This document shows positions 22,921 through 53,338 of a DNA stretch of 64,000 bases, piece by piece (position 1 is the first letter of the stretch; the number at the start of each line of letters is the position of its first letter). The translations under genes and the position numbers were made by a program. This stretch comes from Hyphomicrobium sp. CS1BSMeth3. Its GTDB lineage: Bacteria > Pseudomonadota > Alphaproteobacteria > Rhizobiales > Hyphomicrobiaceae. The DNA lies in assembly GCF_900117415.1 (NCBI RefSeq), contig NZ_FPEI01000006.1, forward strand, positions 2,294,001 through 2,358,000, given 5' to 3'. Below the pieces are notes generated by a model that worked only from the letters and a program-made list of their open reading frames with translations, did no database searches and was not told the DNA's origin.

Positions 22921-22995
22921 GGGCGGGTAGCTCAGTGGTAGAGCATCTGACTTTTAATCAGATGGTCGTGGGTTCGATCCCCACCCCGCTCACCA
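22921..22995 (+). tRNA. tRNA-Lys (anticodon TTT)
   Basis: Complete cloverleaf. The acceptor stem GGGCGGG pairs with CCCGCTC (one G-U), and the D-arm is AGCTCAGTGGTAGAGC. Anticodon stem TCTGA/TCAGA encloses loop CTTTTAA with anticodon TTT. T-arm GTGGG-TTCGATC-CCCAC, discriminator A and encoded CCA complete it. It lies at the left border of the accessory region and is a plausible ancestral integration site. Confidence 0.97.
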
Positions 22996-23062
22996 GTGAA
23001 ATCAACGCGATAGGTTTTCAGCCGCCCGCGGGCGCCCATGAAAGCGCCCACGTAAGGCGAGA

Positions 23063-23299
23063 GGCGAGCGGAACCGCCGATCAGCTCTCGACGGGGCTCT
23101 CTTCGCTCTTCTCGACGAAGGCAACGAGCGTTCCGACCTCAGCAATAGATACGTACTCGTGATCGACGGAGACGCCGAGATTGCGCAGCCGGCCGATCGC
23201 GCGCAAGAAACTCTCGGGCTTCATGCCGAGGCGATTGGCGATCAGCGCCTTCTCGTAGGGCAGAACGACCACGCAGGAACCGCCGCGGCGTCTGCAGTG
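23063..23299. repeat. Left copy of direct repeat flanking the island (partial crp copy)
   Basis: Near-identical to 52631-52858 in the same orientation. Over the core (23063-23283 against 52631-52842) I count about six substitutions and one 9-base in-frame insertion. Homology starts 18 bases past the Crp stop codon and, less exactly, runs up to the stop codon of the multicopper oxidase gene, where it ends abruptly. Sequences to the left of the two copies are unrelated. Confidence 0.85.
23081..23299 (-). pseudogene. Truncated Crp/Fnr-family regulator: C-terminal HTH remnant
   Basis: Encodes the last 63 or so residues of a Crp-type regulator (VVLPYEKALIANRLGMKPES onwards), including the helix-turn-helix. 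It is almost identical to the C-terminus of the full gene at 52649-53338 apart from an SEESP/S difference near the end. Upstream coding homology (codons for H-C-R-R-R-G-G-S-C) stops directly at the TAG of the multicopper oxidase gene, so the cAMP-domain half is missing. An internal ATG could yield a 63-residue HTH peptide, but more likely this is debris of a recombination event. Confidence 0.85.
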
Positions 23300-24811
23300 C
23301 TATGAAACCTGCACCTCGGTCATCATGCCTGTCGCCATGTGATAAAGATGATGGCAGTGCAGGAACCAGGAACCCCTGTGAGCTGCATCAAAGGCGATCG
23401 TAACGGGCGCGTGAGCCGGCACGATGACCGTATCTCGGATAGGGCCTGAGAACCGACGGCCACCAACGCCAACCACCTGGAAATGATGTCCGTGCAGATG
23501 CATGGGATGCATCATCGAGGTCGGGTTCATGAACGTGATCTCGGCACGATCACCCTGCCGAACCTTGAAGGGCTCGTGCTCACCGTGGACACTGCCGTTG
23601 ATGGTCCAGCGATAGCCGGCCTCCTCGCCAAGCATGGCGACGAACGATGCCTGCGGCCGCATGGTCGGGAGCGGGGTGGCCGCTCGAAGGACGGCCTCGA
23701 ACGCGAGATCGAGGAGCTCTGCCTTTTGTGTGGCCATCGCGGGACGTCGCGCAATATCGGCGCCCGGAGTCGCGAGGACAATGCCAGTGAGGAACGTCGC
23801 GTCCTCGACCTGCGCCAGCACTGAGAACGCGCCGCCTTCACGAGGGATTTCAACCGCAAGGTCGATCCGCTGACCCTGCGCAAGCGGGTAGCTCGCTTGC
23901 TGCACGGGTTGGCAGGAGACGCCATCGACCGCTGTGGCGCGACTGGCGAGCCCGGGCGTCGATACGAAGAAGGCCGTCGCCGTGCCACCATTGATGATGC
24001 GCAGGCGCACACGTCCTCCCTTCTCGACCTTGACGATCTGAGGGTCGTCGAGCGTGCGTTCGTTGGCCAGGTAGGCATCGTAGCGAACATCATTGGCATG
24101 CGTCATGCTCATCATATGTCCGCCATGCCCCCGCATATGCCCGCCCATGCCGTGCATGGCGTGCCCACCTCCGGGCCCATGTTGCATCGGGGCAGACGCG
24201 CGACGCGCCGGACCAGGCATTGGCCCCCGTCCTGCTCCATGGCCCCCATGGGCATCTGTTCCGCCAAGCTCGGCCAGAATCTCCAGCGGTGACCGGAAAG
24301 CAAAATCATGGAGCATGACGACGACGTCCTGCACGTCCCCGGCATCTCGCTCCCGCGTCACCATGGGCGCAGCAAGGAGGCGTTGCTCCGAAAGAGTGTG
24401 GGAGTGCATCCAATGTGTGCCGGGCGTGAGCTCGAAATCATGCATGTCGGAAAGATCGGGAGCCAACGCGCCGCCGCCGGGGCGCGCACGGTCCTGATCG
24501 GCGGGCGCCTTCACCTGCCCGTGCCAGTGCATCTGAAGCGGCTCGCCCGAGGCATTGAGTAGCGCGCCGGAAAGACGGTCGCCCTCACGGGCCATCAAAC
24601 CGTTCGTCCCTCCTGGGCCCTCGATATGGAAGACTTTCGCGGGCTTTCCGTTCACCTCGATCGTGCGCGTGCCGACCTTGAGCGTCGGACTCGCCGCGTG
24701 AACTGGTACCCAAGGGACGCCCGCAATCAAAGCGCCGCCCGCGGCGGCGGATGACTTGAGAAAAGTGCGGCGGTCCAGAAGCGGCACCTTCTGATTTCGG
24801 CAATGGCTCAT
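23300..24811 (-). CDS. Multicopper oxidase, CopA/PcoA-like copper resistance protein
   Basis: 503 residues with a Tat-type signal (LDRRTFLKSSAAAGGALIAG). Copper ligands of the four conserved motifs are present: LQMHWHGQ, HWMHSH, HPMHLHGHHFQ and WFLHCHHLYHMATGMM. A Met/His/Gly-rich insert (about residues 200-245, with HAMHGMGGHMRGHGGHMM) is typical of cuprous-oxidising enzymes. Periplasmic oxidation of Cu(I) to Cu(II) is the expected role. It is the last gene of the metal block. Its stop codon abuts the truncated crp fragment with no intervening bases. Confidence 0.9.
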   Translation of the reverse strand: MSHCRNQKVPLLDRRTFLKSSAAAGGALIAGVPWVPVHAASPTLKVGTRTIEVNGKPAKVFHIEGPGGTNGLMAREGDRLSGALLNASGEPLQMHWHGQVKAPADQDRARPGGGALAPDLSDMHDFELTPGTHWMHSHTLSEQRLLAAPMVTRERDAGDVQDVVVMLHDFAFRSPLEILAELGGTDAHGGHGAGRGPMPGPARRASAPMQHGPGGGHAMHGMGGHMRGHGGHMMSMTHANDVRYDAYLANERTLDDPQIVKVEKGGRVRLRIINGGTATAFFVSTPGLASRATAVDGVSCQPVQQASYPLAQGQRIDLAVEIPREGGAFSVLAQVEDATFLTGIVLATPGADIARRPAMATQKAELLDLAFEAVLRAATPLPTMRPQASFVAMLGEEAGYRWTINGSVHGEHEPFKVRQGDRAEITFMNPTSMMHPMHLHGHHFQVVGVGGRRFSGPIRDTVIVPAHAPVTIAFDAAHRGSWFLHCHHLYHMATGMMTEVQVS

Positions 24812-24840
24812 GATCGTATCCTTGATGCTGATGGTGCTCG

Positions 24841-25221
24841 TCAGAATTTGCCCTGCGCAGAGGAGCCATCCGGGGCCGTGAGCTGTACGACGCCCTTCAC
24901 GCCGCGCTTGATCGGCGCCGGTGCAGTTCCAACCAGCTTTGAGCCTTCAACAGGAGCAAGAGCAAAGCGCTGTGATTTGCCATCGATGATGAAGATCGCC
25001 GTTCCTTTGAAACCCGCCGCAGGGATCGGCTTGTCATCGGCGTCGCTGAGATAGACCACCACGTTGGACGAGCCGTCGACGACAAGCTCCGTGTGATACT
25101 TTCCTGCATCCACGCGCCACCCACCATGCCGACCCTTTGCAGCGTCATGAGCGAGAGCGAAGGTCGGCGCGAGAAGCGCCACACTGAGGGCGATTGTTGA
25201 CATGAGACGATAGGCGGACAC
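24841..25221 (-). CDS. Small periplasmic protein of the metal-efflux operon
   Basis: 126 residues from a GTG preceded by AAAGGAG at 8-base spacing. Signal peptide MSAYRLMSTIALSVALLAPT ends near ALAHD. The mature part reads HDAAKGRHGGWRVDAGKYHT and is predicted as a small beta-rich domain, with His residues near the N-terminus that could bind metal. The frame stays open far upstream over the RND gene, but that part is not coding. Position between pump and oxidase suggests a periplasmic metal chaperone-like role; no firm family assignment. Confidence 0.7.
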   Translation of the reverse strand: MSAYRLMSTIALSVALLAPTFALAHDAAKGRHGGWRVDAGKYHTELVVDGSSNVVVYLSDADDKPIPAAGFKGTAIFIIDGKSQRFALAPVEGSKLVGTAPAPIKRGVKGVVQLTAPDGSSAQGKF

Positions 25222-25244
25222 GGCGCAGACTCCTTTGCTCTGTA

Positions 25245-28200
25245 TCAATAGGCCTGAGAGGGACGAGGTCCGGCGTCGACCTCGGAGACGGATTGCTCTT
25301 CTCCGCGCGCCTGGGCGATAAGCCGAGCGAGTGGCTTTTCGCCATAGCGCAGGAACAGGACGGGCGTGAGCAGGGCATCGAGAAGGGTGGCGCTTACGAG
25401 ACCGCCGAAGATGGTGATCGCGACGGGGTAGAGGATCTCCTTGCCGGGCGCATGGGCATCGATCATGAGGGGAACGAGCGCCACGCTGGCCGACAATGCC
25501 GTCATCAGAACTGGCGTCATGCGCTCGAGGCTCCCGCGCATCACGAGATCCGGGCCGAAGGACATGCGGTCGTGGATCGCGAGGTTGATGTAGTGGCTGA
25601 TCTTCAGGATGCCGTTGCGGGTCGCGATTCCGGTGAGTGTGATGAAGCCGATCATGCTCGCGACGGAGAGCGGCTGCCCGACCCACCAGAGCGCGACCAC
25701 CGATCCGATCAGTGCCAGAGGCACGCTGCCCATGATGATCAGGACGAACAGGATCGAGCGATAGCGGCTGTAGAGCAGCGTGAAGACCATCGCGAGAGAG
25801 ATGAGCGAAAGCACGCCGATCGTGCGCATGCTTTCCTCCTGCGCTCGAAACGTGCCCTCCAGGCTGACAAAGAAGCCCGAGGGCAAGCTGGCAGCCGCGA
25901 TCTCGCGCCGGATATCGGCAACAATCGCCGCCATGTCTCGGGCGCCGTCGGAGTTGGCGAGAACGACAATCCGGCGTTTGGTGTTCTCGCGGAGAATCTG
26001 GTTCGGCCCGTCCGCCTCCTTCACCTCGGCGACCTGCCGGAGCGGCACCCAGCCCGAGGGCGTCTCGATGAGCAGATCGGCGAGGCCCTGCGTGGTGCGG
26101 GCGCGATCATTCAGGCGCACAACCAGATCGAAGCGCTTGTTGCCATCCACGAGACGCGAGACGAGCCGCCCATTGGATAAGCGTTTGAGCTGCTCGGTGA
26201 TCTGTGCGGGCTGCAGGCCGTAGAGCGCGGCCTTGCGATAGTCCACGCTGATCTCAAGCTGAGGAATGCGTACCTGACGCTCGACCTGGAGATCGACGAG
26301 GCCCGGAACCGTGGCCAGCCTCGCGCGCAGTGCCTCGGCCAGGCTGCGCAGCGTGTCGAGATCCTCGCCGAAGAGCTTGAGTGCGATCTCGGCGCGAACG
26401 CCTGAGAGCATGTGGTCCAGGCGGTGCGATATGGGCTGGCCGACATTGGTTGCGGCCGGCAGCACTGCGAGACGCGCACGAATATCGTTGATGATCTCGC
26501 TTTTCGTGCGGCCCGAGGGCTTCAGGTCCACCTCGATCTCCGAGGAATGCACGCCTTCAGCGTGCTCGTCGAGCTCGGCACGCCCAGTGCGTCGTGCCGC
26601 GAGTTTGACCTCTGGCACTTCGAGGATGAGCTTCTCTGCAATGAAGCCGACGCGATGGCTCTCCGCGAGAGAGATACCAGGCTGGAAGAGCAGATTGATC
26701 GTCAGCGTTCCTTCGTTGAAGGGTGGCAGGAACGCGCGCGGGAGGCCCGCTGCGGCGACCATAGCGAGGACAACAGCCATGCCCGACGCTGCCATCAACA
26801 TCCGCGCGTGGCCGAACGCCCAGGTGAGCGCGCGCCGGTTCGCACGCTTCAGGGTGCGCACGAGCGGGCTCTCGTGCTCATCGAGCCGCTTCAGGCTCGG
26901 CAGCAGGTAGTAGGCCATCACCGGCGTCAGCGTGATCGAGACGAGCAGGCTGACCAGGATCGAGGTGATGTACGCTTGACCAAGCGGCGCGAAGAGGCGC
27001 CCCTCGATCCCCGACAAGGCAAAGAGCGGCACGAAGACGAGCACGATGATCATCGTCGCGTAGACAATGCCGGAGCGGACTTCCTGGCTCGCGGCCACGA
27101 TCACATCGAAGGTGGAGCGCGGATTGCCGAGCTCCCGGTTCTCCCGAAGACGACGAAAGATGTTCTCGACGTCGACCACGGCATCGTCGACGAGCTCGCC
27201 GATCGCGATCGCGATGCCGCCGAGGGTCATCGTGTTGATGGAGAGGCCGAAGAGGTGGAAGACGATAGCCGTTGCCAGGATGGAGACGGGGATGGCTGTC
27301 AGCGAAATGAAGGTCGTGCGGAAATTGAGCAGGAACAGGAACAGGACGATCGCGACGGCGCCGATGGCCTCGAGCAGGACCTTCTGGACGTTCCCGATGG
27401 ACGTTTCGATGAAGTTGGCCTGGCGGAAGACAACCGTGTCGACCTTGATGCCCTGCGGCATGGTCTGATTGAGCTCTTTCATGGCTCTCTCGACCTCCGC
27501 GGAGAGCTTGACGGTATCGACCGCCGGCTGCTTTTCGACGGACACGATGACGGCGGGGCGGCCCATGAATCCGGCATCTCCGCGCTTCAGCCGGGCGCCG
27601 TAGCTCACTTCGGCAATTTGGTGGAGGTAGACGGAGCGCCCGCCCTCGGCGCGCACCACAACGTCCTTGAGATCCGCGAGCTTGAGCGTGCGGCCGATAT
27701 TGCGGATCAGAAATTCGCGACTGTACTGATCGGTGAAGCCGCCACCGGTGTTCGTGCCGAATTGCTGAAGCGCGCGCTCCAGATCGGCGAGCGAGACGCC
27801 GAGGGCACGCATCGCCGGCGGATTTGGCGCGACCCGATATTGGCGCACCTCGCCGCCCATCGGTATGACCTGGGCAACGCCGGGTATGGTCAGGAGCCGC
27901 GGCCGCACGACGAAGTCAGCGATCTCGCGCAGCTCCATCGGGCTTGCCGTCTCCGAGGTCAGCGCGAACATCAGGATCTGGCCCATGATCGAGTTGATGG
28001 GCCCCATCTGCGGCGTGACATTCGTCGGGAGCTGATCCCGGACCAGCCCCAGGCGTTCGGCAATCTGCTGGCGATTGCGATAGATGTCCGTGCCCCACTC
28101 GAACTCGACGTAGATGATCGAAAGCCCTATCCCTGAGACGGAGCGCACCCGCGAGACGCCGGGGAGCCCGTTCATCTGCGTTTCAATGGGAAAGGTGACG

Positions 28201-28391
28201 AGCTGCTCGACCTCGTTCGGCGCGAGCCCCTCGGCCTCCGTCATGATGGTGACGGTCGGTCTGTTGAGGTCGGGGAACACATCGACCGGCAGACGATGCA
28301 GAGTGAACGCGCCGTAGATCACGAGCACGACTGACAGCGTGATCACCAGCAGCCGATTGCGGAGGGACTGAGTGACGAGGAAGGTGAACAT
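25245..28391 (-). CDS. Heavy-metal efflux RND transporter, inner-membrane pump (CusA/CzcA family)
   Basis: 1048 residues, standard HME-RND length. N-terminal helix followed by [20 protein letters not shown], first periplasmic loop, then TM helices 2-6. In TM4 the proton-relay motif reads [16 protein letters not shown], a variant seen in one HME subgroup, with the paired Asp residues and Glu. The second periplasmic loop and C-terminal helices end with [20 protein letters not shown]. Cation specificity (Cu/Ag versus Zn/Co/Cd) cannot be fixed; linkage with a multicopper oxidase favours copper. The adaptor gene lies 8 bases upstream. No outer-membrane CusC gene is present nearby. Confidence 0.92.
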
Positions 28392-28399
28392 TGCTGGTC

Positions 28400-30067
28400 T
28401 CAGCGGATCTGGTTCAGCAGCTCGGCACCCTGCGTAACGATGCGGCGCCCGGCCTCGATGCCTGCCACGGCGAGCAGATGTGCGCCGTCGAGCGGCTCGA
28501 CGCGAACCTCGCGAATGACGAAGCGCTCCGCATTCGTGTGGTCGTAGACAATGCTCTGGCCGTTCGCGCCGCGCAGTACCGCCTCGCGCGGCAGCGCGAT
28601 CCCCCGACGCTCCTCTGCCGTCGACGCGACGACCGTGACGAACTGTCCTGCACGGAGGCCCGCGGTGCTTCCCTTGATGGCAAACTGATGAGGAACGGCC
28701 TGATTGCGGTCAGCGAAGCCCGTGCCGAGGTATTCGAGCTCGAGCGTCCGGCCGTCGGCCAGAAGGCCTTTGGCCGAACCGTTTGTCGTGTGCGCTTCGT
28801 AGCTCAGCGCTTCGATCCAGAGCACGCTGGGATCGATGATCTGGAAGATGACGGCATTCGGCTCGGCCATCTGTCCGGCAACCGCACTGGCAGCGGCGAT
28901 GATGCCGTCGACCGGAGCGACCAGCGCCTCGGCCTCGCGTTGTACGCGGTCAAGATTGGCGCGCCGCGTGCGCAATCCCCGCAGTTCCAGCTCGGCATCC
29001 TCGAGCTGGCTTTTCGCGATAACTTGCTCGATCGTCCGCAGCCGCTCGACCTTCCGCGCGACAATGGAGATTTGCTGGTCGAGCTCGCGCGCCTGCTGCT
29101 GCTGGACGGTCGCATCGGCGAGCGGCAGCGGTGGCCGGACATAGGCAAGGACGTCGCCTGCCTTCACGGCAGTGCCGAGCGGCTTGAAACCGCCTTCGGG
29201 AGGTGACAGCCGGCCACCGACCGAGGCTTGCACAAGGCCACTGGCATTCGGGCTCGGGATGATACGACCAGGCAGCTCGATCGAGCGACGGTGAGTGCGC
29301 TGCTCGGTGAGTTGCGTCCGAATAGCGAGAATGTGCTGCGTGGGCTTTGGCACGAACAGCGCGCCATCGGCGAACCGCTGGGCAATATCCCGCGGAGCGG
29401 CGACAGCCACTGTATCAGCACGCACGGGACTTCCATGCAGTGAGCCGCCCCCAAGAGCAGCAATGACGATCATACCTGCTGCCGTTCGACCGCGAACGCG
29501 CCACGTGACGAGCGCTCCGGCCGCGAAGCCCACGAAGAGCGCCAGCCAGAGCGAGCCCGCAGCATCGCCAAGGCGCTCCCGGAACTCCTGCGCAAATGCG
29601 CTGTTGAAGATCCATGAAGCGCTGCGCGTAGCTGCCGGATTGAGCACGTCCGCGGGAATTTTCAGCGTCGCAGCGAGAATATCGACAGTATCCTGAGCCG
29701 TCACGATAATGGCGAGATCATAGGAACCCGGCGTCGTCAGGAACGGCGCATCGGCCGCGTACACGCCGTTCCCCTTGTCGACCGGGACGAGCTGGCCGGA
29801 GGAAGTATCGATCTCGATCGAGGCGCCGGTGACCGGCGCATTGGTGCGAAACTGATCGAGATGGATCATCAGCTCGCCACCGCGCGCAATGAGGACCATC
29901 TCGAAATCCGACGAGGATGCCTCAGCGCGAGGGGCTATGGTGTTCGAGACGGGCGGCGGCGGCGCACCGTGGTCGTGGCCCTCGTGAGCGTTGCCAGCGC
30001 CAGCTCCCGCACCAAGTGCGATGGCCAGGAGTGCCGCCTTGCAGAGCCTTGCATTGAAGCGACCCAT
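28400..30067 (-). CDS. RND efflux periplasmic adaptor (CusB/HlyD family) with N-terminal extension
   Basis: About 555 residues, longer than usual CusB-type adaptors. The signal peptide is followed by His-rich [15 protein letters not shown] beta-sandwich-like domain comes next (about 50-135, [20 protein letters not shown]), then a membrane helix (about 170-190, [17 protein letters not shown]). The true membrane-fusion core follows: [20 protein letters not shown], an alpha-hairpin with [16 protein letters not shown], and the lipoyl half [18 protein letters not shown]. Start at 30067 has GAGGA upstream. It couples the RND pump to an outer-membrane channel encoded elsewhere. Confidence 0.88.
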
Positions 30068-30136
30068 AGTGTCCTCGCGCCCCGGGAAAACTCGCACCTG
30101 AGTAGCCGGAGCTGCGTGACGCCGCGTTGCGCCTTC

Positions 30137-30152
30137 GTAACAAATTGTTTCA
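30137..30152 (-). promoter_or_regulatory. Candidate response-regulator operator upstream of the adaptor-pump genes
   Basis: On the minus strand reads TGAAACAATTTGTTAC: TGAAAC and a related TGTTAC ten bases apart, 70-85 bases before the adaptor start. It matches the site at 32391-32406 in 13 of 16 positions. It also contains the dyad AACAA-A-TTGTT. Spacing of one helical turn fits direct-repeat sites of OmpR-family regulators. Confidence 0.55.
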
Positions 30153-30192
30153 GGACGTGGGGTGGCAGGGAATAGTTGGTACGATGGGTGCT

Positions 30193-31569
30193 CTAGGTGC
30201 CCGCTGGAGACGCCCCCGCCGGCTGCGCAGCGGAGAGAGCCGTGGAGGCTTGCCTGGCAGCAGGGCGAACCGGCAAGCGGACGATCGCACTCAGGCCGCC
30301 TTCTGCTCGATTGCGCAGCGTCAGGCTCCCGCCGTCCGCCTCGATATTGGCCTTTGCGATCGTCAAGCCCAAGCCGACGCCACCGGTTTCACTGTTGCGC
30401 GACTCTTCGAGACGGACAAATGGCTCGACGACCACGTCGATCTGGTCCTCGGGTATGCCCGGCCCGTTGTCATCGATGATCACGTAGACATCATCGCCTT
30501 CGACTTCGGTCGATACCGATACACGGGAGCCAAATCGGAGCGCATTGCCGACGAGGTTGGATAGTGCGCGCTTGAGACCAATGTGCCGTGCGTTCACGAC
30601 AACATGCGTCCGGCTGCTCAGAACCGCATCATGCCCTGCGTCGTTGGCGTCGTCGACGATCGTCTGGAGCAAAGCTCCGAGGTCTATGGCGCGCTGTGGC
30701 TCGGAGGCTTCCTCGTCTCTGAGATATGAGAGCGTCGCGTCGATCATCTGCTCCATCTCCGCGATATCTGCGGACATCGCGCGCTGCAGCTCGGGGCTGT
30801 CGATTTCATTTATGCGAAGCTTCAGGCGGGTGAGCGGCGTTCTCAGATCGTGCGAGACGGCTGCGAGAGATCGCGTGCGCCGCGACACCAGGCCTTCGAT
30901 CCTTTGGCGCATGTCGTTGAAGGCGGCCGCAAGCTGCCGCACCTCGAGGGGGCCGCGTTCGGGGACTTCGGATTTGGGATTGTCGGGAGACCACACCGTC
31001 ACCGCCCGCGCCATACTGCGCAAAGGTCGTGTCAGCCACCGCGCCATGAGCAGAGACATGAGCACGACGCCGATAGCCATGAAGCTCGTCGAGAGGAGGG
31101 TTCCATGGCGACCGCTGCCCGAGGGTGCTGCGGCAAACAAGCTCGCATTGAGCCACGTGCTGTCAGGCAGCCGGATGGAAAGTGATGCGACGTGGGCATC
31201 CGTGCTCGTGCCGACCAGGACATCATCTGCCCCGAGCTCGGGGGCCAGCTCCCGAATTCTCGATGTCAGGCTGTGCCAAGCCTCGGCCCCAGGGCCGCCG
31301 GCCGAAGCCCCCTTGACCTTGCTCCAGTGAACATCGATCGGCCCGGTCGAAAAATCGTGTGCCAACGCTTCGCGCTGCGCTTCGGGTACAAACATCACGC
31401 TGCGCTTGATGAATATCAGGCGCTCGGCCAGTCGGGACTCGTGCGCAAGTGTCAGCTCCTGATCGAGAGCGTGCTCGTAGGTCCAAAGGCTGACGATATG
31501 GACGAGCGAGATTCCGAGCACCGATACCAAAATAAGGCGCGCGACCAGCGTATCGAACAATCCGATCAT
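30193..31569 (-). CDS. Sensor histidine kinase of the metal-efflux two-component system
   Basis: 458 residues, EnvZ/CusS-like layout. TM1 (about 10-28, ARLILVSVLGISLVHIVS), periplasmic sensor loop of about 130 residues, TM2 (about 160-178, FMAIGVVLMSLLMARWL), HAMP with RSMARAVTVWSPDNP. The H-box is LAAVSHDLRTPLTRLKLR; N box LSNLVGNALRFG, G1 DDNGPGIPEDQ and G2 GGVGLGLTIAKA follow. Its ATG overlaps the response regulator stop by 4 bases. Probably senses periplasmic copper or silver for the downstream efflux genes; the metal is inferred. Confidence 0.9.
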   Translation of the reverse strand: MIGLFDTLVARLILVSVLGISLVHIVSLWTYEHALDQELTLAHESRLAERLIFIKRSVMFVPEAQREALAHDFSTGPIDVHWSKVKGASAGGPGAEAWHSLTSRIRELAPELGADDVLVGTSTDAHVASLSIRLPDSTWLNASLFAAAPSGSGRHGTLLSTSFMAIGVVLMSLLMARWLTRPLRSMARAVTVWSPDNPKSEVPERGPLEVRQLAAAFNDMRQRIEGLVSRRTRSLAAVSHDLRTPLTRLKLRINEIDSPELQRAMSADIAEMEQMIDATLSYLRDEEASEPQRAIDLGALLQTIVDDANDAGHDAVLSSRTHVVVNARHIGLKRALSNLVGNALRFGSRVSVSTEVEGDDVYVIIDDNGPGIPEDQIDVVVEPFVRLEESRNSETGGVGLGLTIAKANIEADGGSLTLRNRAEGGLSAIVRLPVRPAARQASTALSAAQPAGASPAGT

Positions 31570-32330: not shown

Positions 32331-32390
32331 GGGGTAAGTGCGCTTCCGCCCAAGCATACGCGCTTTCCCGTATCGCGCCATTTCTGCAGT

Positions 32391-32406
32391 GTTTCAAAAT
32401 GTTTCA
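32391..32406 (-). promoter_or_regulatory. Candidate operator upstream of the metal-responsive regulator gene
   Basis: Perfect direct repeat GTTTCA-AAAT-GTTTCA on the plus strand, that is TGAAAC-N4-TGAAAC reading towards the regulator gene. The ten-base period and the similar motif upstream of the adaptor gene suggest binding of the response regulator to both promoters. Confidence 0.55.
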
Positions 32407-34003: not shown

Positions 34004-34213
34004 ACCCTTCTTTCACCCGTTTGGGGGATGCGGGCTCGCGATAACGCGCCAACATTCGCGGGTCCCTGGCGTGCCTGCCGGCAACGATCGCCGGAAGAGC
34101 AACGCGCATGGCGGTTGTCAGGATGGTGCTATCGATTTGAGGAAAACAAACCAATGCCGATGGTCCTGCTGAACTATTGCTGATTGGGGCGAGAGGCATA
34201 TCGAGAAATTGAA

Positions 34214-34870: not shown

Positions 34871-34918
34871 TGCGCGCGCCCCACTGGATCACACTGCGGC
34901 GCAATAAGGGAGAAAGGC

Positions 34919-35695: not shown

Positions 35696-35839
35696 AAGTG
35701 TCGGCACAAACAAGAGCACAGCGTTCTCTACTGATGGAACACGAAGCCGAGGGCGGAGAAGTTGCCTGAAATCGCAGCAGTAAGCTGCGGCACCTCAGGT
35801 GGCGGTTGAGAGGCCCGAGAGCAAAACGGGAGGAAAACG

Positions 35840-36451: not shown

Positions 36452-36504
36452 ACGGGGGCGGCAGCCATGCGCAGCGCGTCCGCCGCTCGCGAGCAATGCT
36501 GCGG

Positions 36505-36550: not shown

Positions 36551-36556
36551 CGCCAT

Positions 36557-36640: not shown

Positions 36641-36816
36641 GACAACCACTTGATCGGCTTTGTCGATCGGGGTCGACAAACGACGACGTCCGCTTTCTCT
36701 GCTCCTCAACTGCCAAATCACTGACGCATCTCGCTGGTGATCCGAAACGGCCATCCGTGTGGAGATTGCGATCGCAGCTCTTCAATTGTATGGACTTCGT
36801 CCGACGAGGACAGCCC

Positions 36817-45385: not shown

Positions 45386-45418
45386 GATTGCCTCCTTACG
45401 GGCGGTCTCGTTGGCGAG

Positions 45419-46042
45419 CTAGTACGAGCTCGGCGGTGTCAGGACGCACATCAGGACGGCTGGAGCGCTACCCCGGTTCTCGAAGCGATGGCGACCCTTA
45501 TGCCGCAGGGAGTAGCTGTCGCCCGACGTGAGCTTGAAGCGCTTGCCGTCGACGCACAGGTCGAGTTCACCGGACATGATGAGACCCGCTTCCTCCCCCT
45601 TCCGCAGACGGCCACCGCGACCGGTAGAGGAGCCTGGCTGGAAGGTCGTGATGATCAGCTCGAGTTGCCCCGTCAGCGTTGGCGAAAGGAGCTCCTCGAT
45701 GACACCCTTCGCACTCAAGTCGAGGATGCGACGATTGCCCTTGCGCACGACGACGTCGCGCTCTCCCGGCGGCGCCGCGGCCGGCCCCTGGAAGAACCAG
45801 TTGATACCGACGCCGAGCGCGTCGGAGATCTTCTGCAATGTCCCGATGGATATGCCCGACTGATCGCGCTCGATCTGGCTGACGTAGCCGATCGAGCGCC
45901 CGATCGCGGTCGCCAGTTCGGCAATCGTCTTGCCGCGTGCCAATCGCAAATCTCGGATCGTGGACCCGAGCGCCGATGCGGATGGGGATGCGGCAGGCTT
46001 CCGGTTGGACGAGTGCCGTGAAGTCAGGGGTTTGGAGTCCAT
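45419..46042 (-). CDS. XRE-family transcriptional regulator with C-terminal cupin (PuuR-like)
   Basis: 207 residues. Flexible N-terminus, then XRE helix-turn-helix (LRLARGKTIAELATAIGRSI, GYVSQIERDQSGISIGTLQK) and a cupin domain (PGSSTGRGGRLRKGEEAGLI, TSGDSYSLRHKGRHRFENRG). Such regulators sense a small molecule in the cupin and repress or activate catabolic genes. Start uncertain: ATG at 46051 or further upstream would include part of a 15-base tandem repeat. First gene of the amidohydrolase operon and divergent from the importer, so it probably controls both. Confidence 0.87.
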   Translation of the reverse strand: MDSKPLTSRHSSNRKPAASPSASALGSTIRDLRLARGKTIAELATAIGRSIGYVSQIERDQSGISIGTLQKISDALGVGINWFFQGPAAAPPGERDVVVRKGNRRILDLSAKGVIEELLSPTLTGQLELIITTFQPGSSTGRGGRLRKGEEAGLIMSGELDLCVDGKRFKLTSGDSYSLRHKGRHRFENRGSAPAVLMCVLTPPSSY

Positions 46043-46052
46043 GGGCCACATT

Positions 46053-46082
46053 CTTGCTTCGGAGGATCTTGCTTCGGAGGAT
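46053..46082. repeat. 15-bp tandem duplication in divergent promoter
   Basis: CTTGCTTCGGAGGAT is repeated perfectly twice (46053-46067 and 46068-46082) just upstream of the XRE regulator start. It may be a duplicated operator or a slippage product. Confidence 0.85.
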
Positions 46083-46112
46083 GAAAAACATGACGCCCAA
46101 TCTCGGCGTCGT

Positions 46113-46133
46113 GAAAATTGTATTGCATTTTTC
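46113..46133. promoter_or_regulatory. AT-rich imperfect palindrome, candidate XRE-cupin operator
   Basis: GAAAATTGTATTGCATTTTTC matches its own reverse complement at 16 of 21 positions. It lies in the only AT-rich patch between the divergent regulator and importer genes, 79 bases before the importer's first start codon. Confidence 0.45.
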
Positions 46134-46211
46134 ATTTTCTTGAACAAGTCTTCACGTGGCTTGGGCGATGCGCGGCCGCCGCGTGGGGAGAATCAAGTGG
46201 GAGGAGATGCA

Positions 46212-47786
46212 ATGCGCGCACGTAACTTTGGAGTGCTCATCGCCGCTGCAGCATTGACGCTCGGCAGCGCGGCGGCGCAGGAGCCCAAGCGAGGCGGCAC
46301 GCTGGTGATGGGCCAGAGCAGCGCAACCACGCATTTCAACAACGCTGTCGGTTCCGGCACCGGAATCATGATCCCCGGCGCGCAGCTCTTTGCGAGCCCG
46401 ATCATGCACGACGATAAGTGGAACCCTCAGCCTTACCTTGCGGAGCGGTGGGAAATCTCCACTGATGCCCTCGCGGTTACTCTCCATCTACGCAAGAACG
46501 CTATTTTCCACGACGGCCATCCGATCACCTCGGAGGACGTCGCGTTCTCGATCCTCACGATCCGGGACAACCATCCTTTCAATACCATGTTGCGTCCGGT
46601 CGAGGGCGTCGACACACCGGATCCCCACACTGCTGTCATCCGGCTGAAGCACCCGCATCCCGCCATCCTCTATGCGATGGGGCCGCCGCTGATGCCGATC
46701 CTGCCCAAGCACATCTATGGTGATGGCCATGCGATCAAGACACATCCACGCAACAATAAGGATGTCGTCGGCTCGGGCCCCTTCAAGTTCGTCTCCTTCA
46801 AGCCCGGCGATCAGGCCGTTATGGAGCGGTTCGACAAGTTCTTCCTTCCCGGCAAGCCGCTCCTCGACAGGATCATCCTGAAGCTCTATCCGGACTCGCA
46901 AACCTCGTTGCTCGAGCTGGAATCGGGCCGCCTGCACATGCAGCCGTTCTTCAATCGCGTGCTCGAGCTCGAACGCGCCAAATCCAATCCGGCCCTGACG
47001 ATCACGTCGCGCGGCTACGAGGCGATCGGCGGCATCAACTGGCTGCTTTTCAACAACAAGAAGAAGCCATTCGACGACATCCGGGTTCGCCAGGCGATCG
47101 CGCATGCGATCGATCGCGACTTCATCGGCAAGGCACTGCACAAGGGGCTGTCGCGGAAGGCGACAGGGCCGATTCACAGCGGCTTTCCGCAGCATTCGGC
47201 GGAAACGACGCAGTACGCCTTCGATCTCAAGAAAGCGGAGGCGCTGCTCGACGCGGCCGGCATCAAGCGCGGGCCCGACGGCGTCAGAATGCGGATCACG
47301 TGTGACTACTATCCCGGCGACGAGGACGGCCAGAAGCGGATCGCCGAGTACATGAAGCCTGCCCTCAAGCGGATCGGGATCGAGGTCGAGGTGCGTACGC
47401 CGGCCGATTTCGCGACGTTCGCGCGACACATGGCGAGCAAGGACTTCGACATCAGCATGGATGCGGCCTTCGCGTGGGGCGATCCGGTCATCGGGGTCCA
47501 CCGCACCTATCTGTCGACCAATATCCGACCGCTCGTATTCACGAACAACGCACAGTACGCAAATCCCAAAGTTGACGAGCTGCTGGCCACGGCCGAGCAA
47601 GAGATGGATCCCGCAAAGCGAAAGGCCCTCTACGTCGAGTTTCAGAAGATCGTAACAGCCGATGTACCGCTCGTGTGGCTGACCGAGTTGCCCTATCACA
47701 CGATTGCCAGCAAGCGCGTCCATGGCCTGCCGGCGACGATTTGGGGCGCTGCTGCGCCGCTGCTCGATACGTGGCTTGCCGACTAG
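46212..47786 (+). CDS. ABC transporter substrate-binding protein (SBP_bac_5, peptide/nickel/oligopeptide type)
   Basis: 524 residues. Signal peptide with core FGVLIAAAALTLGSAAA, cleaved near AQEPKRGG. Family signature PKRGGTLVMGQSSATTHFNN and the recurring motif VVGSGPFKFVSFKPGDQAVM; C-terminal MDPAKRKALYVEFQKIVTAD. GGGAGGAG precedes the ATG. It captures a periplasmic solute for the permeases downstream. Oligopeptides are the default family ligand, but linkage with a demethylating flavoprotein and amidohydrolase suggests another amide or N-methyl compound. Confidence 0.93.
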   Translation: MRARNFGVLIAAAALTLGSAAAQEPKRGGTLVMGQSSATTHFNNAVGSGTGIMIPGAQLFASPIMHDDKWNPQPYLAERWEISTDALAVTLHLRKNAIFHDGHPITSEDVAFSILTIRDNHPFNTMLRPVEGVDTPDPHTAVIRLKHPHPAILYAMGPPLMPILPKHIYGDGHAIKTHPRNNKDVVGSGPFKFVSFKPGDQAVMERFDKFFLPGKPLLDRIILKLYPDSQTSLLELESGRLHMQPFFNRVLELERAKSNPALTITSRGYEAIGGINWLLFNNKKKPFDDIRVRQAIAHAIDRDFIGKALHKGLSRKATGPIHSGFPQHSAETTQYAFDLKKAEALLDAAGIKRGPDGVRMRITCDYYPGDEDGQKRIAEYMKPALKRIGIEVEVRTPADFATFARHMASKDFDISMDAAFAWGDPVIGVHRTYLSTNIRPLVFTNNAQYANPKVDELLATAEQEMDPAKRKALYVEFQKIVTADVPLVWLTELPYHTIASKRVHGLPATIWGAAAPLLDTWLAD

Positions 47787-47816
47787 TTTCCGCAGTATCG
47801 AGGTGGACCGACTGTC

Positions 47817-48788
47817 ATGGCGCTCACCGCTTTCCTTCTGAAGCGCTTGAGCTACGCGGCGGTGCTCGTGCTCGCGGTGCTGGTGCTGAATTTCCTGCTG
47901 ATCCGCTTGGCGCCAGGCGATCCGATCGAGACGCTCGCCGGCCAAATGGGCGGCATGACGGAGGAAATACGTGCTGAGCTGCAGCGCGCTTATGGCTTGG
48001 ACAAGCCCTTGCCGGCCCAACTCGGCATCTACCTGTCGCGTGCTATCAGCGGCGATCTCGGCCATTCGTACTTCTTCAATCTGCCGGTAACGCAACTGAT
48101 CCTCGAGCGGGTGCCCGCCACTCTGCTTCTTGTCATGACGGCCTTGTTCCTGGCTGTGCTGGCCGGCACGACGCTGGGGGTGATGGCGTCCAGGCGCCCG
48201 AACGGTCTGCTGTCGCAGATCATCACGGTCGTCTCCGTCGTAGGCTATTCGGCGCCCGTCTTCTGGACCGGGATGCTGTTGATCATCCTGTTCGCGTCGA
48301 TCATTCCGATCCTGCCTGTATCGGGGATGAGGGCTGCAGTCGTCCGGCAAGGTGTGTTCGCTGATATGCTCGATGTGGCGCACCATCTCGTGTTGCCGAG
48401 CCTTTCCCTCGCCATCGTCTATCTGGCGCAGTATGGCCGGTTGACACGCGCCAGCATGCTCGATGTGCTGGGTGCCGACTACATCCGCACTGCGCGCGCG
48501 AAAGGACTGACGGAGAATACCGTCTATTTCCGCCATGCCCTGCGGAACGCGCTACTGCCGGTGATCACGATCGTCGGTCTGCAGTTCGGCAACATGCTGG
48601 CTGGCGCGATCGTGGTGGAGACCGTCTTCAACTGGCCCGGTCTCGGCCGTCTGGCGTTCGACTCCGTGCTCCGGCGTGACTATCCGACTTTGCTGGGGCT
48701 CCTTTTCTTTTCCTCGTTGTTGGTAATCGTGGTCAACCAGCTGACGGACATGTGCTACCGCCTCGCCGATCCAAGGATCAGGACATGA
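47817..48788 (+). CDS. ABC transporter permease (DppB-type)
   Basis: 323 residues with six predicted membrane helices; starts FLLKRLSYAAVLVLAVLVLN. Typical DppB first-loop APGDPIE, and cytoplasmic EAA-type loop YIRTARAKGLTENTVYFRHA contacting the ATPases. Ends in LTDMCYRLADPRIRT. It lies 30 bases after the binding-protein gene and overlaps the second permease by 4 bases. Confidence 0.93.
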   Translation: MALTAFLLKRLSYAAVLVLAVLVLNFLLIRLAPGDPIETLAGQMGGMTEEIRAELQRAYGLDKPLPAQLGIYLSRAISGDLGHSYFFNLPVTQLILERVPATLLLVMTALFLAVLAGTTLGVMASRRPNGLLSQIITVVSVVGYSAPVFWTGMLLIILFASIIPILPVSGMRAAVVRQGVFADMLDVAHHLVLPSLSLAIVYLAQYGRLTRASMLDVLGADYIRTARAKGLTENTVYFRHALRNALLPVITIVGLQFGNMLAGAIVVETVFNWPGLGRLAFDSVLRRDYPTLLGLLFFSSLLVIVVNQLTDMCYRLADPRIRT

Positions 48789-49657
48789 GCGCCAACTCAC
48801 GGCCTGCACACGGTGAGCATCCGACGCGGGAAGCACTGCGCATGTTTGCGCGCAGCCCGGTGGCGGTGGTCGGCTTCGCGCTTCTGGGGGCGATCGTCGC
48901 CCTGGCCTTGCTCGGCCCGATGCTGATGCCCGCCGATCCGTTCGACATCGTTGCGGCACCGCTTTCTCCGCCGAGTTTCCAGGAGGCGCTGCTCGGCACC
49001 GATCAACAAGGCCGCGATGTTTTGACGGGCATCGTGCATGGAGGACGAGCAACACTCGCAGTTGGGCTGTCGGCCGCGCTTGTCTCCGTCCTCATCGGCA
49101 TCACCGTTGGCGCCATTGCCGGTTTCTTTGGGGGCACCATCGACGAAATTCTGATGCGGGTGACAGAGTTCTTCCAGGTGCTGCCCGCACTGTTGTTCTC
49201 GATGGTTCTCGTGACGCTTTTCACGCCGACGCTGATGACGATTGCGCTCTCGATCGGCGCCGTCAGCTGGACTGCGACCGCGCGGCTCACTCGTGCCGAA
49301 TTCCTGAAACTGAAGGAGCTGGACTTCGTCGCCGCTGAGCACGTGATTGGCGCCGGAAAGGGCCGCATCATCTGGGGCGTCATCCTCCCAAATGCCTTGC
49401 CGCCCCTCATCGTATCCGCGACCTTCGCGATCGGCACAGCGATCCTGTTCGAGGCGAGCTTGTCGTTTCTCGGTTTGGGGGACCCCAATCGCATGAGCTG
49501 GGGCCTCATGATCGGCTCCAGCCGGTCCTATATCCTCAGTTCCTGGTGGGCCGTCACGTTCCCTGGATGCATGATCTTTCTCACTGTTCTCGCCGTCAGC
49601 CTGATCGGCGATGGCCTGAACGACGCGCTCAATCCCAAGCTGAGGGAGCGCCGATGA
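48785..49657 (+). CDS. ABC transporter permease (DppC-type)
   Basis: 290 residues. N-terminal helix after RSPVAVVGFALLGAIVALAL, LLGTDQQGRDVLTGIVHGGR as in DppC, and EAA-type loop FVAAEHVIGAGKGRIIWGVI. Ends GDGLNDALNPKLRERR. Start ATG 48785 overlaps the stop of the DppB-type gene; end overlaps the first ATPase gene by 4 bases. Confidence 0.93.
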   Translation: MSANSRPAHGEHPTREALRMFARSPVAVVGFALLGAIVALALLGPMLMPADPFDIVAAPLSPPSFQEALLGTDQQGRDVLTGIVHGGRATLAVGLSAALVSVLIGITVGAIAGFFGGTIDEILMRVTEFFQVLPALLFSMVLVTLFTPTLMTIALSIGAVSWTATARLTRAEFLKLKELDFVAAEHVIGAGKGRIIWGVILPNALPPLIVSATFAIGTAILFEASLSFLGLGDPNRMSWGLMIGSSRSYILSSWWAVTFPGCMIFLTVLAVSLIGDGLNDALNPKLRERR

Positions 49658-50649
49658 CCGCTGCCGGTCTGCTGCGGATCGAGGGGCTGTCGGTGGAGTT
49701 CGGCTCCGGCGACAATCTCGCGCGCGTGTTGAACGATGTCGCGTTCGAGATGAAACCTCGCGAAACGCTGGGCATCGTTGGCGAGTCCGGGTGCGGCAAG
49801 AGCATGACAGCGCTGGCGATCATGCGTCTCGTTCCCAACCCACCGGGGCGGATCAGTGCGGGTCGCATCGTGCTGGGAGGCGAGGACCTCCTGCAGGCAA
49901 CCGACGCGCGCATGCGTGACATCCGCGGCAATCGGATCGCGATGATCTTTCAGGAGCCGATGACCTCGCTCAACCCGGTTTTCACGGTGGGCAGCCAGAT
50001 TGCCGAATCGTTGACGCTTCATCTCGGTCTCAGCGGTGCGGCGGCGCGTGCCCGCGGTGTCGAGCTGCTCAAGGCGGTCGGAATTCCGTCGCCCGAGCAG
50101 CGCTTCGACGCGTATCCGCACCAGCTCTCGGGAGGTATGCGACAGCGCGTCATGATCGCCATGGCGATCGCATGCGAGCCCGAGTTGCTCATTGCCGACG
50201 AGCCGACCACGGCGCTGGATGTGACCGTCCAGGCGCAAATTTTCGATCTGCTGCGATCCATCCAGCAGGCGCGCGGCATGGGCCTGATCCTGATCACGCA
50301 CGACATGGGCGTAATCGCCGAGATGACGGATCGGGTCGTCGTCATGTACGGCGGACGCGTCGTCGAGCAGGGCGCCACGCGCGACGTGCTCGCCCGGCCC
50401 GCGCATCCCTACACTCGAGGTCTCGTTGCCTGCGTCCCCACCCTCGAGATGGACGGCGATGGCGAGCCCGCCGACCTGCCGGAAATTCCCGGCGTCGTTC
50501 CCTCGATCTGGGAGTTGCAGACCGGCTGCCCATTCGCCGATCGATGCAATGTCGTGCTGCCATGGTGTCGACAAGAGATGCCGGCGGCGACTCTCATCGG
50601 AGTGGCGCATTGGGTGGCTTGCTGGCAGCGACAGGAGGGGCGGCCATGA
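49654..50649 (+). CDS. ABC transporter ATP-binding protein (DppD-type)
   Basis: 331 residues. Walker A GIVGESGCGKSMTALAI, Q-loop MIFQEPMTSLNPVFTVG, signature LSGGMRQRVMIAMAIA, Walker B LLIADEPTTALDVTVQ, switch ITHDMGV. C-terminal oligopeptide-transporter domain with Cys-rich GCPFADRC. Both ends overlap neighbours by 4 bases. Confidence 0.95.
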   Translation: MTAAGLLRIEGLSVEFGSGDNLARVLNDVAFEMKPRETLGIVGESGCGKSMTALAIMRLVPNPPGRISAGRIVLGGEDLLQATDARMRDIRGNRIAMIFQEPMTSLNPVFTVGSQIAESLTLHLGLSGAAARARGVELLKAVGIPSPEQRFDAYPHQLSGGMRQRVMIAMAIACEPELLIADEPTTALDVTVQAQIFDLLRSIQQARGMGLILITHDMGVIAEMTDRVVVMYGGRVVEQGATRDVLARPAHPYTRGLVACVPTLEMDGDGEPADLPEIPGVVPSIWELQTGCPFADRCNVVLPWCRQEMPAATLIGVAHWVACWQRQEGRP

Positions 50650-51674
50650 CGGCGCCGATCCTGGAGATCAAGGATCTGCAGGTTCACTTTCGGCGTCGGC
50701 GGCTGAACCCCTTGGCGCAGCCTGAGGTGGTGCGCGCGGTTGACCGTGTGTCACTGACATTGAACCGAGGCCAGACCGTCGGTCTGGTGGGCGAGTCGGG
50801 GTCGGGAAAGACGACGGTGGCGCGCGCGATTTTGCGGCTGGTGCCGACCACTGCCGGCAGCATCGAACTTGATAATACACGGCTCGACGAACTTTCGGGT
50901 GGTCGGTCGCACGAGAACCGGCGGCGCATCCAGTACATATTCCAGGATCCCTACTCGTCGCTCAATCCTCGCGTGCGAGCGGGCGACATCGTGCGCAGTC
51001 CGCTCGATGTCATGAATATCGGCGATCAGGCGTCGCGCGACGCGCGCGTCTCCGAACTGTTCGAGGCGGTGGGGCTGAGACCGGAGCAGCGAGGCCTGTT
51101 TCCGCATCAATTCTCCGGCGGTCAGCGACAGCGGATCAACATCGCACGCGCCCTGGCGCCTGATCCCGATCTCATCATCTGCGACGAGCCGGTGTCCGCG
51201 CTCGATGTCGCAATCCGCGCTCAGATCCTGAACCTGCTGCAACGGTTGAAGCGCCAGCGGGCCATTACCTATCTGTTCATTTCGCATGATATGGCCGTGG
51301 TTAAGCACATGGCGGACGAGGTTGCCGTCATGTATCTGGGCCAGATCGTGGAGAAGGCGCCTCGTCGATCGTTCTTTTCGGCGCCGCTGCATCCATACAG
51401 CCAGGCGCTCCTATCGGCGGTGCCACGGGTCGGTGTCGGCACCGCCGGGTCGGCGGGTCGTATTCGCCTCAGTGGCGATCCGCCGAGCCCCATCGCTCCG
51501 CCACCAGGCTGCCGGTTTGCGCCACGATGTCCAATCGCCGAATCCCGCTGTCATCAATTGCCACCCGAGCTCCGCGAACTGGCTCCAGCTCACTCCGTTC
51601 GCTGCCATCTGATCGAAAACCGAGGCGGGGCGCCCGTGTCACCCATGTCGGAATGGGTTGCCAAACACGATTGA
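50646..51674 (+). CDS. ABC transporter ATP-binding protein (DppF-type)
   Basis: 342 residues. Walker [19 protein letters not shown]-loop [17 protein letters not shown], signature [15 protein letters not shown], Walker [16 protein letters not shown], switch ISHDMAV. C-terminal [15 protein letters not shown] completes the peptide/nickel importer ATPase. Last gene of the importer operon. Confidence 0.95.
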
Positions 51675-51891
51675 ATTTTACTTCCGCAAACAAACCGGCG
51701 TGAAAAAGCGACTCTAGTGGGATTGAGCGCCGGGTGCTCCGATCGCTACGCAGAGACGGGCCAACAAGGGGCATCGCCGCCGTTGACAATCCGCTGTCGG
51801 CGCTGGCACTGTGGAACAGTTGCAGTAGGGCGCATCGGTCGAGGCCGAAGGGGCTATGCCCACCTACGATTCGTGAACCGTAGTTGCGCCC

Positions 51892-52539
51892 ATGCCGAAC
51901 CTTGAAAACCTGAAGAAGCAGGCCAAGCAGTATCTGCGCTGGCATCGTGAGCGGTATCATCCAGTCGCCGCGGAGATCAGAGCTTCGCTACCTCGATTTC
52001 AGCACCTGGATGACTATCAGGTGTTGGAGGCGACGTTCAAGCTCAGCGACGCGCAGGAGCTTGTTGCTCGCCAATTAGGGTTCGAAGGGTGGCAGGCGCT
52101 CAAGGCAGGAGCCCTAGCCGTGAACACTCAAGTCAAGCAGGTAACGACACGTCCGATCCTCAGCAGGACGGAAGCCGTACTCTACGTCGCTGACTTCAGG
52201 GCGTCGTGCGAGTTTTTCACTTCTAAACTCGGGTTCGCAGTCGAGTTTGCCTACGGCGATCCGCCGTATTACGGCTTGGTCAAGCGCGACCATGCGCGGC
52301 TTTGCCTGCGGCTTGTCTGCGAGCCTGTCTTCATCGGAAATATTCGCCAGCGCGAGCAGTTGCTGTCGGCCTCGATCACGGTAGACTCGGCAACAGAGAT
52401 CAAGCAGCTCTTCTTGGAGTTCCAATCCGCCGGCGTGAGCTTCCACCAAGGGCTCAAGAAAGAGCCTTGGGGCGCGCGGAACTTCATCGTCCTCGACCCT
52501 GATGGCAATCTCATCTTGTTCGCGGGCCCCGCCGATTGA
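51892..52539 (+). CDS. VOC/glyoxalase-superfamily protein
   Basis: 215 residues. An N-terminal helical segment (LENLKKQAKQYLRWHRERYH) is followed from about 85 by one vicinal-oxygen-chelate module: RTEAVLYVADFRASCEFFTS, KLGFAVEFAYGDPPYYGLV and ending FIVLDPDGNLILFAGP. Members include glyoxalases, dioxygenases and bleomycin-type resistance proteins; the metal-ligand His residues are not all present (only the terminal region is canonical). Function unknown. Lone plus-strand gene between the importer and the crp copy. Confidence 0.8.
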   Translation: MPNLENLKKQAKQYLRWHRERYHPVAAEIRASLPRFQHLDDYQVLEATFKLSDAQELVARQLGFEGWQALKAGALAVNTQVKQVTTRPILSRTEAVLYVADFRASCEFFTSKLGFAVEFAYGDPPYYGLVKRDHARLCLRLVCEPVFIGNIRQREQLLSASITVDSATEIKQLFLEFQSAGVSFHQGLKKEPWGARNFIVLDPDGNLILFAGPAD

Positions 52540-52630
52540 ACACAACTCCGGGCAATGAGGCGAAGGCTGCTGCTGAACCTTCGCCTTGTTCCGCTAAGGG
52601 TCAATTCCCGCCACCGGCGTGCGACGGAGG

Positions 52631-52858
52631 GGCGAGCGGAACCGCCGATCAGCTCTCGACGGAGCTCTTCTCGACGAAGGCAACGAGCGTGGCGACGTCA
52701 GCAATAGAGACGTACTCGTGATCGACGGAGACGCCGAGATTGCGCAGCCGGCCGATCGCGCGCGAGAAACTCTCGGGCTTCATGCCGAGGCGATTGGCGA
52801 TCAGCGCCTTCTCGTAGGGCAGAACGACCACGCAGGAACCGCGGCGCGTGCGGCACTG
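52631..52858. repeat. Right copy of direct repeat (3' end of intact crp gene)
   Basis: Covers the last 70 or so codons of the Crp/Fnr gene plus 18 bases beyond its stop. Same orientation and near-identical sequence to 23063-23299. Marks the right border of the candidate island. Confidence 0.85.
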
Positions 52859-53338
52859 CTGGATCAGGAAGTCAGCGATGCGCTGCGGGGCGGACAGCAG
52901 CTTGATCTGCTCGATCTGCTCGACGAGGAACTTCAGGTGGTGGGACGCCGAGGCCAGCATGCAGAGCGCGAGGTCCGGGTTCTCGCGGATACTCTTGCGC
53001 AGGTTCTCCCCGTCAATTTTCAGCAAGCGCGACGGCGCCACCACCTCGGCATTGGCCGGATAGCGGCCGCCGAGAAACATGGCGGCCTCGGCAAAGGTCT
53101 CGCCGCGCCGGAACATGCCGACGACGGCTTCGCCGCCCTCCGAGGTGAGACGCGCGATCTTCACCCAACCCTCGAGGATGACATAGAAGGCATCGGCCGG
53201 ATCGCCTTGCTGGAAGAGCAGCGCGCCCTTCTCGTAGCACCTCGGCCCTGACGATCCCACGAGCCTCGCGGTGACATCCTTTGGAATGCGTCCAAAGAGC
53301 GGCGTCGATCGGACGAGGTGCCAATCCTCAGGCTCCAT
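52649..53338 (-). CDS. Crp/Fnr-family regulator, Dnr-like (no iron-sulfur cysteines)
   Basis: 229 residues. Cyclic-nucleotide-type sensor domain (ALLFQQGDPADAFYVILEGW), dimerisation helix and C-terminal HTH (KALIANRLGMKPESFSRAIG, with helix residues PESFSRAIGRL). The N-terminal Cys cluster of FNR is absent, pointing to the Dnr/NnrR-like branch that senses NO or redox state, though cAMP-like effectors cannot be excluded. It lies at the border of the ubiquinone cluster and divergent from nothing essential; a TTGAC-N4-GTTAA site nearby suggests it controls the ubi genes. Confidence 0.9.
   Translation of the reverse strand: MEPEDWHLVRSTPLFGRIPKDVTARLVGSSGPRCYEKGALLFQQGDPADAFYVILEGWVKIARLTSEGGEAVVGMFRRGETFAEAAMFLGGRYPANAEVVAPSRLLKIDGENLRKSIRENPDLALCMLASASHHLKFLVEQIEQIKLLSAPQRIADFLIQQCRTRRGSCVVVLPYEKALIANRLGMKPESFSRAIGRLRNLGVSVDHEYVSIADVATLVAFVEKSSVES

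Follow-up and report, generated by a model that had tools for sequence, protein, structure and literature searches.

Genomic islands associated with tRNA genes, and insertion hot spots beside such genes, are an established concept, and the case considered here is of this general kind: a stretch of 64,000 nucleotides from Hyphomicrobium sp. CS1BSMeth3 (the window: G000:C2:2294001-2358000, on a 2.7-Mb contig of a 6.0-Mb assembly), in which a tRNA-Lys gene is followed by accessory genes and by two copies of the 3′ end of a Crp/Fnr-family regulator gene (crp). Another described process lies close to it, namely homology-facilitated illegitimate recombination, (PMC3240628), by which a homologous anchor on one side and an illegitimate end on the other could leave a partial duplicate next to an insertion. 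The reading that best accounts for the locus, to which we give a probability of roughly 0.57, is that the crp repeat is a recombination scar in a hot spot at the side of the tRNA, where separate blocks of genes have come together, and that it does not mark the edges of a single island.

In the self-comparison, positions 23059-23301 align with 52627-52860 as a direct repeat in the same orientation, at 91.4% identity over 244 columns (E 3e-93), and a repeat search resolves the same pair into an ungapped core of 197 bases at 94% and a further piece of 47 bases at 91%. The left copy, a stub of ~243 bases in total, holds the ~72 final codons of crp, the stop codon and ~22 bases downstream; it begins 63 bases past tRNA-Lys, and its homology stops at 23301, within the stop codon of a multicopper oxidase gene (TAG, minus strand, 23300-23302). 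The right-hand copy belongs to a whole gene, whose protein finds its best family model in FtrB, yet below the cut-off (127.6 of 211 bits), for which reason it is named here only as a member of the Crp/Fnr family. An earlier reading of the window from its letters alone (the sequence-only reading) had reported this doubled 3′ end in one orientation, with the left copy by the tRNA and ending at the oxidase stop, and in this it was right; it had further supposed that the two copies delimit an island, inserted as a single piece of 29 kb, and this does not agree with the arrangement in the relatives.

In G004, a genome of the same genus, contig C6 carries the end of rpoN, tRNA-Lys (450-524), a DUF2252 gene of 1.1 kb (626-1705) and then the orthologue of a GST gene which in our genome lies at window coordinate 68203-68772, beyond the window end, and which G004 reaches 1.2 kb past tRNA-Lys. 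Past the GST gene, a comparison over 60 kb shows C6 to be largely collinear with the chromosome of the window, although gaps occur, for instance at 68.9-72.5 kb. Since G004 joins the side of tRNA-Lys to the GST gene, the variable stretch runs, with the caution owed to a draft genome, from 22996 to ~68.2 kb (~45 kb), and the right-hand crp, with ubiX next to it, falls inside this stretch instead of bordering it. The interval between the repeats, which had been taken for accessory, is thus indeed variable within the genus, although as part of ~45 kb and not as a unit of 29 kb. The block at window coordinate 68.9-72.5 kb, absent from G004:C6, is found at G004:C1:633483, so that rearrangement goes on beyond 68.2 kb.

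The site by tRNA-Lys is differently filled in the relatives, G004 having 1.2 kb in place of ~45 kb, and G002 and G003 having other content. The gene rpoN adjoins tRNA-Lys in G000 (our genome), G002, G003 and G004, and is apart from it, as judged by eye, in the remaining genomes among the matches listed; in G001 the two are on separate contigs, and a transporter-like gene lies close to each. The arrangements in G003 and G001 suggest repeated rearrangement of the site within the genus. In G001 (contigs C154 and C45) a TRAP-type transporter-like gene, so read by eye, may separate rpoN and tRNA-Lys, the contigs being broken there. An integrase after rpoN in this genome was considered and rejected, the matched protein being a membrane transporter-like one (TRAP-type by eye).

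The features of the stretch, with their coordinates in the window, are these:

21142-22710: rpoN (NCBIfam)
22921-22995, plus strand: tRNA-Lys (TTT), next to rpoN, left edge of the variable stretch (ARAGORN, Rfam)
23059-23301, minus strand: crp 3′ stub, likely a pseudogene (repeat and codon comparison)
23300-32406, minus strand: copper/heavy-metal block with multicopper oxidase, small protein, CusA/CzcA-type RND pump, adaptor, histidine kinase and response regulator (Pfam, NCBIfam)
32520-32707, plus strand: gene scraps at a block joint, a ~102-base stretch and an adjoining 69-base piece
32897-36451, plus strand: LuxR-type regulator, weakly DUF4189-like protein, protein without Pfam match and TPR protein; compositional outlier (Pfam)
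36743-37893, plus strand: AlkZ-like DNA glycosylase gene (domain scan; 90% to G004:C11:21660-22810)
38104-39795, minus strand: thiamine-pyrophosphate enzyme (domain scan)
40243-51554: FAD/aminomethyltransferase-type oxidoreductase, CobW GTPase, amidohydrolase, HTH-cupin regulator and oligopeptide-type ABC transporter (domain scan)
51760-52600, plus strand: glyoxalase (VOC) gene, 26 bases from the crp repeat (domain scan)
52627-53378, minus strand: intact Crp/Fnr gene (open reading frame, ORF, 52649-53338, 229 aa), with cNMP_binding and HTH_Crp_2 domains
53515-58245, mixed strands: anaerobic ubiquinone module of ubiX and ubiD (minus) and ubiT, ubiU and ubiV (plus); the UbiT, UbiU and UbiV models pass their curated cut-offs
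58265-64000, minus strand: carboxylase/biotin-carboxylase and NMT1-type ABC transporter block, on to ~65.3 kb (87% to G003:C226)

As far as draft genomes allow one to judge, the interval is a patchwork, being made of blocks that are found in separate places in the relatives. The copper block (23299-32406) is collinear with G004:C17:809-9952 at 79.4% (blastn), the AlkZ-like gene matches G004:C11 at 89.9%, and the oxidoreductase (40122-43181) matches G004:C1 at 88.5 and 83.0%; the stretch 40243-51554 is collinear with G003:C417 and C425 (77-79%). The glyoxalase gene has its counterpart on C5 of its own genome (91.8%) and, over 51772-52539, on G001:C12 (86.3%). To the right of crp, the ubi module matches G004:C9 (53564-58245, 78.5%) and G003:C55 (53922-58241, 78.8%), the block at 58265-65320 matches G003:C226 (87.2%), a hydrolase at 66.1-67.0 kb matches G004:C3, and upp at 67.4-68.1 kb matches G004:C8 and G003:C334. 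The matches in G004 on C1, C3, C8, C9 and C11 sit at least 20 kb from contig ends. Because the interval splits into blocks that are apart in the relatives, its entry as a single insertion of 29 kb becomes unlikely. The glyoxalase gene, whose second gene-sized copy is at G000:C5:850508-851348 (92%), and which has an 84% relative on a Bosea plasmid, perhaps moves alone.

These comparisons bear on a rival explanation that we consider possible though doubtful, according to which crp-ubiXDTUV once lay directly by tRNA-Lys and a pre-assembled 29 kb entered by a single crossover, of the Campbell type, in crp. Such an integration yields direct repeats with one whole and one 5′-truncated copy, as found here; both inner ends of the repeats abut blocks known elsewhere, and stub and intact gene are the closest pair among the three crp copies of the genome. 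However, both halves of the interval find their counterparts in other genomes piecemeal, over no more than ~9 kb at a time, among the best matches from 60 genomes, its own included, though a donor may be missing from this sample; none of the plasmid records covers 80% of either interval query; crp-ubi itself is within the variable stretch; and tRNA-Lys stands beside crp in none of the relatives compared, which include no closer strain. The state in which tRNA, crp and ubi were adjacent may have existed within this lineage alone.

The wider linkage of crp was followed in 48 of the 60 related loci found, the 12 left out having 20-33% identity. None of the 48 carries tRNA-Lys (ARAGORN, which detected other tRNAs in 10); ubiT, ubiU or ubiV genes are near crp in 7 of them, and a NirK-type match in 1. 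The pieces that bear these loci are often short, so that linkage is undercounted, and most loci are without a recognised neighbour under the query set used; where neighbours are matched, they are ubi or denitrification-type genes. On these sequences, the position of crp by the ubi module is an association common to other genera, and crp sequence at the tRNA is seen here only. The linked crp and ubiXDTUV module appears in different genera (G004:C9, G010:C89, G024:C1) with crp varying in side and orientation. The empty site that the sequence-only reading had proposed as a check, tRNA-Lys followed by crp-ubiX, was seen neither at these 48 loci nor after tRNA-Lys in G001, G002, G003 and G004, of which about 3, 80, 5 and 60 kb were examined, and no crp-like sequence occurs in those stretches.

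The relative age of the stub can be judged from a third crp, also intact, at G000:C2:327314-328028, which has 95.7% identity over 715 bp to the intact gene of the window. The two intact genes differ by 26 synonymous and 1 non-synonymous codons of 225, and over the 59 codons that can be compared with the stub by 10 and 1, while stub and intact gene differ over these by 1 synonymous and 3 non-synonymous codons. Judged by the synonymous differences, the split between stub and intact gene is more recent than that between intact and third gene. The idea that an insertion duplicated the 3′ end of crp beside the tRNA thus holds to the extent that the duplication postdates the split from the third copy, although no relative examined has crp next to tRNA-Lys. 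Nine bases present in the stub and missing from the intact gene occur in similar form in the third copy, and since the stub retains them it is a copy of a recent ancestor of the intact crp, and not of the present gene.

The contrast in constraint between the stub pair and the pair of intact and third genes (Fisher p 0.003 with 225 codons, 0.033 with the same 59) suggests that the stub has likely been freed from protein constraint, in other words, that it is a pseudogene. Its tail is an open run of 72 codons in the same frame as the oxidase and behind the oxidase stop, and it matches HTH_Crp_2 weakly (26.2 bits against a cut-off of 27), as would be expected if the stub still served as a free DNA-binding domain whose translation follows that of the oxidase. 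Nevertheless, the same frame is expected by chance one time in three, and three of the four codon changes are non-synonymous, against 1 of 225 amino acids between the full paralogues, which makes such a use scarcely credible.

The regions upstream of the intact and third crp are weakly similar by eye, save for a common ACTTTGACGCGGATCAAA stretch, which may be an Fnr-type box. A larger duplication shared with the third crp was rejected, as the homology is gene-sized and the promoter region just weakly similar. The third protein is near-identical to that of the window (1 change in 225 aa) despite a promoter that looks diverged by eye, so that gene conversion is possible. Around it are copper oxidase-type, plastocyanin/azurin-type, COX1-type, COX2-type and FGE-sulfatase-type proteins and, further, a second Crp, an FeS-assembly protein, a DUF2249 protein, a membrane protein without Pfam match and a GMC oxidoreductase; among these neighbours we presume NirK, pseudoazurin and an NnrS-like protein, names that are ours and not those of the models.

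If the scar reading is accepted, tRNA-Lys by rpoN would be an insertion hot spot in this genus of the Hyphomicrobiaceae, and the ~45 kb that follow (22996 to ~68.2 kb) would be made up of blocks of operon size, each having arrived or moved on its own. The stub would be a scar in decay, left by a partial and fairly recent duplication of the crp belonging to the ubiXDTUV module and cut where the copper block joined. Two joints are the key ones, that of stub and copper block at 23.30 kb and that of glyoxalase and crp flank at 52.60-52.63 kb; at the former, the stub has its boundary where the copper block ceases to match G004:C17 (window 23299). As the most likely route of joining we infer that foreign or relocated DNA would have been anchored on one side by homology in crp, and on the other would have been attached through illegitimate end joining directly past the stop codon of the oxidase, leaving the 3′ stub and a whole crp; any order of arrival of the blocks would be equally conjectural. 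One-sided anchoring in crp would account for stub and whole gene, a single crossover with a circle would do so equally, and both would require crp near the tRNA beforehand; by a third route, the stub would have arrived attached to the copper block, with no need for crp near the tRNA first. A bolder proposal, which we hold at long odds, is that the crp paralogues (intact, third and stub) act as recurrent recombination anchors, crossovers through which would help to add operon blocks by tRNA-Lys without a dedicated recombinase; its basis is that the crp coding parts are 96% identical and the protein almost identical, with promoters far more diverged by eye.

Several points weigh against the scar reading. 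The copper block of G004 starts 0.8 kb from the end of contig C17, and draft contigs can be neighbours; the GST gene of G003 has a different left neighbour (fdhE-like by eye), and the arrangement of G004 is perhaps not the ancestral one. The repeats abut the copper block and, 26 bases off, the glyoxalase, as one insertion would give, and the entire patchwork could have formed elsewhere and then arrived at once. The AGC common to the G004 bases after the oxidase TAG and to the crp sequence at the joint is a microhomology of 3 bases, which fits illegitimate joining as weak evidence, and the pseudogene contrast depends on just 4 codons.

That the assembly joined unrelated segments at the crp repeat is highly improbable: although the blocks are apart in G004 and the reads of the window are not visible, the copies differ by ~9%, including a 9-base indel, and so are no collapsed repeat, the contig extends over 2.7 Mb, and at the other block joints the self-comparison reveals no long repeat of this sort. 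Scraps of other genes lie at the joint near 32.5 kb, of which the ~102-base one is conserved across many relatives and is by eye an ABC ATPase Walker-A piece; the 69-base piece (32639-32707) recurs at G000:C2:337037-337105 (97%) and was rejected as a repeated border element, occurring at two places only in the genome.

Among the called genes that were scanned between 23.3 and 68.8 kb, none showed an integrase, resolvase or transposase domain (ORFs 39965-40105, 63937-64449 and 65502-65618 being outside the scan, and the simple gene caller used being one that may miss genes), in keeping with the earlier statement that no integrase is present. Flanking insertion sequence copies were not found either, the flanking repeat being the end of a regulator gene, and a second copy of the tRNA-Lys end is present neither in the genome (pattern search, at most 2 mismatches) nor in the window (at most 3). 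Among the relatives, G003 has a Phage_integrase gene 2.7 kb past this tRNA and, on another contig, a copy of the tRNA end of 45 bases, and G002 has copies of 46 and 38 bases on the same contig, 37 and 48 kb away. These elements (G002:C6:256250, 218920, 207877; G003:C127, C371) look, in G002, as if arrayed, and their presence at this tRNA speaks for the hot spot of the scar reading. It is with such relatives in mind, too, that one might suppose an island of the integrase type at tRNA-Lys to have decayed, with the loss of its integrase and of the right attachment site, and the crp repeat to be incidental, the more so as GC is about 62-65% against ~65% or more on either side; the lack of a second tRNA end and of integrase or transposase domains among the scanned genes makes this unlikely.

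At a finer level, segments to the left of the tRNA have a GC content of 65-68%, the blocks between 23 and 72.5 kb one of about 62-65% (the glyoxalase gene 59%), and the sequence further on ~65.5%. The composition check suggested by the sequence-only reading thus went against its border, there being no step at the right-hand crp, past which about 62-65% continues to 72.5 kb. Measured by tetranucleotide distance from the right backbone, the segments 32.4-36.7 and 40.1-51.6 kb lie above every one of the 60 control windows; the marker is a weak one, because a left backbone segment 20 kb before the window also slightly exceeds the controls (0.091 vs largest 0.089). Composition was rejected as a border marker, given this weak signal and an unmarked right-hand crp. 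The compositional outlier includes a pair of small proteins (34214-35695), of which one resembles DUF4189 weakly, with a score under the cut-off, and the other has no Pfam match.

The case illustrates that the nearest long direct repeat can mislead as an island border, since comparison with a single genome of the same genus shifted the right border by about 15 kb and revealed several blocks where one had been supposed; what results is a site, tRNA-Lys by rpoN, that is variable in the genus and has a roughly datable scar at one joint. With regard to known systems, the anaerobic ubiquinone genes ubiT, ubiU and ubiV (PMC6747719 and PMC12423496) resemble the present ones in that the UbiT, UbiU and UbiV models score over their cut-offs here, and PMC12423496 describes the oxygen-independent UbiTUV steps in an account of Hyphomicrobium denitrificans; these systems concern the module beside crp and not the repeat itself. 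To the tRNA-associated islands the locus is alike in having accessory genes right after a tRNA, with content varying among the species of the genus, and, in the relatives, in the integrase gene of G003 and the tRNA-end copies of G002 and G003; it differs in that no integrase and no copied tRNA end were found here and in its patchwork content. To homology-facilitated illegitimate recombination it is likened from the end product only. Set beside these systems, the locus is an ordinary genome patchwork with a recombination scar of a known kind, and its novelty is low.

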